This document shows, in pieces, positions 18,763-29,896 of a stretch of DNA of 33,693 bases. Source of the DNA: Candidatus Hydrogenedentota bacterium (GTDB lineage Bacteria > Hydrogenedentota > Hydrogenedentia > Hydrogenedentales > JAJRTN01); the NCBI GenBank assembly GCA_024278275.1, contig JAJRTN010000095.1, positions 1-33,693 on the forward strand. Direction: 5' to 3'. The notes beneath the pieces are model-generated. The model made no database searches and had not been told where the DNA came from. It worked only from the letters and a program-made list of their open reading frames with translations. Position 1 is the first letter of the stretch; the number at the start of each line of letters is the position of its first letter. Position numbers and translations under genes: made by a program.

Positions 18763-18796
18763 GGACCAACATGGACTTTCACGGACAAGCACGGAC
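18763..18796. repeat. One-armed GGAC array with 10-bp period
   Basis: GGAC begins at 18763, 18773, 18783 and 18793 (CTGGAC, ATGGAC, ACGGAC, ACGGAC). It abuts the truncated 5' side of the toxin remnant. It resembles one arm of the 9-bp-period dyads at 20052 and 29822, but the period is 10 and there is no facing arm. Confidence 0.5.
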
Positions 18797-18798
18797 AC

Positions 18799-18885
18799 GA
18801 GGTTGTCATTCTACTGGCCGGCGGCGATAAGCGTACGCAAGCCAAGGACATAAAGACCGCATTGCGTCTTGCGGAAAACCTGTAG
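18799..18885 (+). pseudogene. 3' remnant of a HigB/RelE-like toxin gene
   Basis: The 28 codons before TAG (18883-18885) read EVVILLAGGDKRTQ then AKDIKTALRLAENL. This is the typical end of the RelE-superfamily addiction-module killer proteins that precede this antitoxin type (GGDK.TQ..DI..A..LA..L). The 5' two-thirds of the gene, including the start, is missing; the sequence before it is the GGAC array. The remnant ends 9 nt before the antitoxin start, as in intact modules. Confidence 0.75.
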
Positions 18886-18894
18886 AAGAGCATC

Positions 18895-19209
18895 ATGGCA
18901 AAGACTGTTACCACCCCATTCGATGTGGCCGAGCATCTTCGCACGCCGGAGGAGATGGCGGCTTACCTGGAAGCTTGCCTGGAAGAGGCCCATGGCAATG
19001 CCGCCTCCATCGCAAGGGCTCTGGGGAACATTGCCCGGGAAAAAGGCATGTCGCAAGTAGCCTGTGACGCCGGCCTTTCCCGGGAAAGCCTCTACAAAGC
19101 GCTCTCCGGGGATCGAAGCCCGGAGTTTGACACGATCCTCAAGGTTATGGGAGCGTTGGGCTTGCGGTTGCGTGCCGAAGCGATACACACGACTGAAGAA
19201 GCAACCTGA
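18895..19209 (+). CDS. HigA-like antitoxin (addiction-module antidote, XRE fold), orphaned
   Basis: 104 aa; the ATG follows the toxin remnant by 9 nt. Conserved N-terminus FDVAEHLRTPEEMAAYLEAC, then AAYLEACLEEAHGNAASIARALGNIA. An XRE-type HTH follows at about 48-88: GMSQVACDAGLSRESLYKAL and DRSPEFDTILKVMGALGLRL. In intact modules this protein neutralises a RelE-like mRNA interferase and represses the operon. With the toxin truncated it may act as a free repressor or anti-addiction protein, or be in decay. Confidence 0.88.
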   Translation: MAKTVTTPFDVAEHLRTPEEMAAYLEACLEEAHGNAASIARALGNIAREKGMSQVACDAGLSRESLYKALSGDRSPEFDTILKVMGALGLRLRAEAIHTTEEAT

Positions 19210-19861: not shown

Positions 19862-20005
19862 GGGTGCCACAGGCAGCTTGCTGCCCGTGTGTGGTCACGA
19901 CAGTGACCCATTGAATTCCTCGGCACCCCTCCCGGCCTGCGCCAGGTAGAGAGAGGATGGCCACTGTCGTGACCAGCACGGGCGGGCAAGCCGCCTGTGG
20001 CACCC
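19862..20005. repeat. Long imperfect inverted repeat (about 50-bp arms), MITE-like or hairpin RNA
   Basis: Left arm 19862-19911 and right arm 19957-20005 are reverse complements over about 50 positions with few mismatches and one indel. Shared blocks include GGGTGCCACAGGC, GGTCACGACAGTG and GCTTGC. The central spacer is 45 nt. There is no coding potential; target-site duplications were not resolved by eye. Confidence 0.75.
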
Positions 20006-20051: not shown

Positions 20052-20144
20052 ATGGACGAGATGGACTTTATGGACACGATGGACACAAGACAGGATCACC
20101 CAGAGGGTTGAGTCCATTTTGTCCATTACGTCCATACTGTCCAT
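20052..20144. repeat. 9-bp-period dyad array A: (ATGGAC+3)x4 facing (GTCCAT+3)x4
   Basis: ATGGAC begins at 20052, 20061, 20070 and 20079. After a 27-nt centre GTCCAT begins at 20112, 20121, 20130 and 20139. All eight hexamers are exact; the 3-nt spacers vary (gag, ttt, acg on the left; ttt, tac, act on the right) and do not pair across the dyad. Confidence 0.85.
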
Positions 20145-29821: not shown

Positions 29822-29896
29822 GTGGACGCAGTGGACAAAGTGGACCCGGCCGGTCTCCACCACGTCCACCACGTCCACCATGTCCACTACGTCCAC
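29822..29896. repeat. 9-bp-period dyad array B: (GTGGAC+3)x3 facing GTCCAC x4
   Basis: GTGGAC begins at 29822, 29831 and 29840. On the other side CTCCAC at 29855 is followed by GTCCAC at 29864, 29873, 29882 and 29891. Same architecture as array A, but the outer base is G/C in every unit where array A has A/T in every unit. It lies between two divergent genes. Confidence 0.85.

Follow-up and report, generated by a model that had tools for sequence, protein, structure and literature searches.

The repeat array at positions 20052-20144 of the window, by which we mean the whole stretch of 33,693 nucleotides analysed here from a Candidatus Hydrogenedentota genome (contig JAJRTN010000095.1), is probably an ORF-less, non-autonomous, REPIN/MITE-like copy of a dispersed IVS-like hairpin element. 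A complete element would consist of a TIGR02436 plus TIGR04258 suffix-protein gene that lies in, or itself carries, a dyad. Each arm of this dyad would be a tandem series of 9- or 10-nt units, every unit made of a conserved 6- to 8-mer built on GGAC/GTCC and a free spacer. The arms would anneal in RNA or in single-stranded DNA, forming short helices split by internal loops; the suffix protein would read the hexamer dialect of its own clade by binding it, and gene-less copies, reduced to a stem and a short loop, would spread through the genome as REPINs are spread by RAYTs. Direct support comes from the existence of a dyad family that extends over many phyla, from the fusion with or framing of a gene by arrays, and from the match between gene clade and repeat dialect. 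It also comes from one empty site, from hexamers that are conserved while spacers turn over, and from an S23-type fold. From these observations we infer that the protein binds the hexamers and drives copying, as well as the kind of nucleic acid on which it would act.

Array A, as we call the array at 20052-20144, has a left arm on the plus strand (20052-20084) in which ATGGAC starts at 20052, 20061, 20070 and 20079, and a right arm on the minus strand (20112-20144) in which GTCCAT starts at 20112, 20121, 20130 and 20139. Both arms keep an exact 9-bp step, and the 27-nt centre (20085-20111) forms the apical loop. These eight exact hexamers around a 27-nt centre are just what an earlier, sequence-only reading had described. 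Within each arm the spacers are all unlike (GAG, TTT and ACG on the left; TTT, TAC and ACT on the right), and no continuous stem is formed. That reading also saw no pairing between the spacers of the two arms, which agrees with our survey of 162 dyads from 70 genomes: spacer pairing was no more frequent than expected by chance, and a pairing role for the spacers was rejected. The window contains six ATGGAC-N3-ATGGAC pairs against a mean of 0.01 in dinucleotide shuffles, and six were reached in 0 of 100 shuffles. Taken as RNA, the region has a predicted fold of -46.8 kcal/mol (z = -5.96), equalled by none of the shuffles. An Rfam covariance-model search of the window gave no match at the gathering threshold, and array A is not translated, there being no ORF of at least 90 aa and no TIGR04258 match across 20052-20144. 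Just upstream, at 19862-20005, lies a 47-nt inverted repeat (79% complementary), parts of which are seen again on contig C179 (twice) and on contigs C193 and C3 and which therefore represents a second, different family of dispersed hairpins.

The window holds a second dyad, array B (29822-29896), with three GTGGAC units on the plus strand (29822-29845) and four GTCCAC units on the minus strand (29864-29896), both at a 9-bp step, and a degenerate fifth unit at 29855. Its right arm is also scored, at 29856-29896, as a simple tandem repeat TCCACCACG of period 9, a call that masks the dyad partner at 29822. A half-array of a second dialect, one CATGGAC followed by two CACGGAC units at a 10-bp step, occupies 18770-18796 on the plus strand. 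Over 18770-18884 this half-array touches a 28-codon remnant ending in ...LRLAENL, apparently the C-terminus of a toxin gene, which directly precedes an intact HI1420-like antitoxin gene (18895-19209, PF21716); the 5' end of the remnant is broken, its start missing at the CACGGAC repeat.

Three exact TGGAC units at step 9 occur at 22 places in the window's genome. When one mismatch was allowed, the three-unit pattern gave 31 + 57 overlapping matches, compared with 4 + 3 for a reversed-pattern control, and a search for the dyad form gave 18 matches at 11 loci where the control gave none. Most copies in this genome are of the GTGGAC variant, array A being of the ATGGAC variant. A homologue of array A on contig C154 is 79% identical over 105 bp, flanks included, and contains the CACCCAGAGGGT core of the apical loop in inverted orientation; as the flanks are shared, longer units have been duplicated. 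A shorter match lies on contig C166. Beyond this genome, the type 1 dyad was found in 26 of 100 relatives, and a scan of named genomes found dyads with three units in each arm in at least 10 phyla; phyla or groups among the matches listed are Hydrogenedentota, Chlamydiae, Lentisphaerae, Planctomycetota, Verrucomicrobia, Chlorobi, Kapaibacterium, Sumerlaeota, Cloacimonadota, Acidobacteria, Desulfobacterota and Gammaproteobacteria. Two of these genomes, L229 and L308 (both Hydrogenedentota), seem to come from the window's own order, since their TIGR04258 matches fall at the same positions as matches in genomes of that order; this agrees with the placement of the window in Hydrogenedentota. The thought that the array might exist only here thus did not survive array B, the 22 places and the phylum count. 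Several arrays per genome with long similar flanks were seen in Thiosymbion (L247, L269, L286, L296) and in Lentisphaerae AS22 (L231, L265, L267, L274, L278), so that in these genomes the repeated unit is larger than the array and contains it. By a crude check only, arrays lie mostly between genes. The gene caller, too weak to support a statistic on location, labelled 6 of 15 arrays as coding, at least one of them (array B) owing to an ORF extended past its likely start.

The link to a protein came from relatives, in which several loci have the array inside an open frame that ends with 'YPEIAANAAL...GGFTERLYR'. By NCBIfam, the array-bearing gene has TIGR02436 in front, followed by TIGR04258 (four helix bundle suffix), the latter scoring 64.8 and 70.9 bits over a curated cut-off of 40; a PF05635 match falls just below its own cut-off (31.9 versus 33.8 bits). 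The earlier statement that there is no gene around the array consequently holds for the window and fails in relatives, whose genes can include this array in their translated sequence. Translation in relatives had been expected to speak against the idea, yet it proved the key to it. The array sits between the two domains and between helix 3 and helix 4. In-gene arrays are free of stops in several phyla, and the reading frame NRT GGA CNN ... NNG TCC AYN makes stops nearly impossible. In a structure model the array-coded residues form a disordered loop (pLDDT under 50) that precedes a long suffix helix, and Foldseek ranks two structures of the S23 family, 2gsc and 2rld, as its best matches (probability 1.0); as modelled, the suffix protein has an S23/IVP-type fold. 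A PDB sequence search with the protein returned no match. Genes that lack an inner dyad can instead be framed by a plus arm upstream and a minus arm downstream (L479, L393). We know of no catalytic activity in S23/IVP proteins, and copying would therefore need a further partner. Conserved gene neighbours of the transposase or reverse transcriptase kind were sought beside TIGR04258 genes and none was found. The protein was absent from a phage collection, and a plasmid search yielded one distant match. In at least four genomes (L295, L214 and loci of G038 and G128), the suffix gene has type I restriction-modification genes next to it, judged by eye to resemble HsdM/HsdR.

The linkers of 147 such genes fall into five repeat dialects with a common GGAC/GTCC core: RTGGAC at step 9, CACGGAC at step 10, and TCGGAC, GATCGGAC and ATAGGAC, each at step 9. 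On a protein tree built without the linker, the dialect changes four times, the minimum for five states, whereas shuffled labels required at least 29 changes. We counted arrays within 400 bp upstream of, inside, or 300 bp downstream of the 147 genes. The 54 clade I genes had type 1 arrays upstream in 31 cases, inside in 39 and downstream in 13, with a single type 2 array; clade II genes had only type 2 and clade V genes only type 4. Clades I, II and V are the clean cases, since the dialect patterns of clades III and IV overlap, both mutually and, if a mismatch is tolerated, with ATAGGAC. A shared dialect could arise merely because a gene carries its own array, and vertical inheritance of gene and array could by itself produce the match, so that dispersed arrays matter more. 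When dispersed arrays of types 1, 2 and 4 were set against clades I, II and V in 100 relatives, clade I was associated with type 1 (p = 1e-7), II with type 2 (4e-9) and V with type 4 (2e-4), an association partly confounded by ancestry and genome size. Within the order, 42 genomes have the gene, and in these the correct pairing of clades and dialects came out best of six, with P between 0.0008 and 0.005 when permuted within families. Outside the window's order, in genomes of many phyla and with arrays that are not in the gene, TIGR04258 was present in 31 of 38 array-bearing genomes compared with 5 of 32 distant genomes (p = 2e-8); it was lacking in 7 of 48 array-bearing genomes.

Comparison of close relatives revealed both turnover and constraint. 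At a site where one genome (G026) carries a dyad, a second genome of the same genus (G034) shares the flanking genes but lacks an array, its aligned flanks being only 87 bp apart, and a third (G037) has an array of the ATAGGAC dialect (type 4); G034 is the single clear case of an empty site that we examined, and its exact ends are imprecise. In the L053 region (about 1930-2000; contig C189 of G000), a type 4 array GGACCTATA/GGTCCTATA directly adjoins a type 1 half-array, which puts two dialects side by side in a single intergenic region. Between the congeneric genomes G009 and G059, three orthologous arrays, a small sample, share 129 of 132 hexamer bases (98%) and, even at the most favourable alignment, 32 of 48 spacer bases (about 67%), with flanks about 91% identical and unit numbers that differ. 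This supports the proposal that the hexamer and the step are what selection maintains. The suggested covariation of the first hexamer base between arms was confirmed across the 162 dyads from 70 genomes (r = 0.82). It reflects a variant common to the whole array, with no rank-by-rank covariation (P 0.40).

What is kept (hexamer, step, inversion and clade match) and what is free (the spacer) fit recognition of short helices by the protein of the matching clade, and the patchy spread, duplication with flanks, empty site and gene framing fit an element with ORF-less copies. The sequence-only reading had offered both a repeat-spreading process and an array bound by a protein; both survive, and TIGR04258 can now be named as the candidate protein. 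Binding without mobility would amount to a regulatory network: the suffix protein would be a resident regulator that binds RNA or DNA, the dyads would be its targets, nothing would move, and it would control its own gene through the arrays inside and beside that gene. A binding-site code would explain the clade-dialect match and the hexamer conservation equally well, and would suit the mostly intergenic position suggested by the crude check. We nevertheless consider this unlikely: the patchy spread over many phyla, an orthologous site that within one genus has either no array (G034) or one of another dialect (G037), duplicated copies that share their flanks (C154, Lentisphaerae AS22, Thiosymbion) and the element-like framing of the gene all speak for turnover and against a stable regulon.

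Passive slippage or gene conversion, by which 9-bp units would expand where intergenic DNA is prone to form hairpins and be carried along with the gene, seems very unlikely to us. Slippage would copy whole units, spacers included, whereas in fact the spacers vary and the hexamers stay constant; and although unit numbers do vary between species and runs of identical units occur (cca cca cca, atc atc atc), it leaves the same variant on both arms, the dispersal and the clade-dialect match without explanation. Hardly any probability attaches to a role purely in RNA, with the dyads as mRNA 3' stabilisers or terminators and their likeness across genomes convergent. The strong predicted hairpin and several arrays directly after stop codons point that way, but there is no U-run, arrays also stand between divergent genes, and the same hexamers, steps and dialect-gene match across phyla would go unexplained; moreover, spacers pair at chance level, and thus stem stability is not what is kept. 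Collagen-like coding repeats, also considered, account for some viral matches to CTGGAC units and not for the RTGGAC dyads.

If array A is a gene-less copy of the proposed element, a clade I gene would be its expected partner, and none was found in the window's genome (a 96%-complete assembly of 200 contigs) despite many type 1 dyads. The only TIGR04258 genes found there are one of clade V, cut short where its contig ends, and, next to a CACGGAC dyad, what is left of a clade II suffix; both lie less than 1 kb from a contig end, so that an unassembled clade I gene is possible. It is also possible that the clade I gene has been lost and array A is a relic.

REPINs are short intergenic palindromes, each family tied to a cognate gene located among copies of the same repeat, and different REP/REPIN families belong to different RAYT clades. 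The present arrays are likewise dispersed, many-copy short palindromes, mostly extragenic by our crude location check, with a cognate gene amid its own repeat and a family that differs by protein clade. In contrast, the gene here is TIGR02436 plus TIGR04258, PF05635-like, and not a Y1 (HUH) tyrosine transposase; the arms are hexamers at a 9- or 10-bp step rather than a GTAG/GGAG-type tetranucleotide foot with an imperfect hairpin; and arrays are often inside a reading frame. Published accounts of REP/REPIN sequences and their RAYT (TnpA-REP) transposases include PMC3116915, PMC2817692 and PMC8266576. The IVSs of 23S rRNA, for example in Coxiella, have been proposed to be mobile or remnants of transposition, and the function and origin of S23/IVP proteins have been unclear for more than 25 years (PMC4990558). 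As in those IVSs, an S23/IVP-fold ORF occupies the loop of terminal inverted repeats, in the gene of relatives and not in array A. Unlike those insertions into 23S rRNA, which RNase III excises, our arrays lie between or inside protein genes, the window lacking any Rfam match; their stems consist of repeated dialect units with dispersed ORF-less copies, and the protein has an additional TIGR04258 helix, preceded by the loop that contains the array. Avd, an accessory protein of diversity-generating retroelements, is a four-helix bundle described as a relative of the S23 family that works with nucleic acid. It resembles the suffix protein in that bundle and relationship, but we saw neither a reverse transcriptase nor a template/variable repeat beside suffix genes, whose neighbours are not conserved, occasional type I restriction-modification genes excepted.

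The repeat and its matched protein look like an undescribed self-spreading element; in the papers searched we found no description of it. The chances seem about evenly balanced that this is a new class of selfish element, with at least five modular-stem dialects on a GGAC/GTCC core, each read and spread by its own S23-fold clade without a known transposase or reverse transcriptase, and with arrays that double as an in-frame protein loop. An unexplained, widespread class of repeats is now tied to one uncharacterised protein family, and TIGR04258 and its rRNA-dwelling S23/IVP cousins gain a testable role. The five matched dialects amount to a natural experiment on specificity, in which the clade predicts the hexamer that its protein should read. 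If the mobility is real, DNA would be dispersed here without a recognised transposase.

Phage dyads of the form GTGGACAAT...TTGTCCACA, at first taken as relatives, resemble tandem DnaA boxes and were kept out of the statistics. Many IMG/VR viral contigs (L084-L163) carry an intergenic dyad GTGGACAAT GTGGACAA...TTGTCCACATTGTCCACA at a 9-bp step; from their likeness to DnaA boxes (TTGTCCACA), these are possibly phage replication origins.
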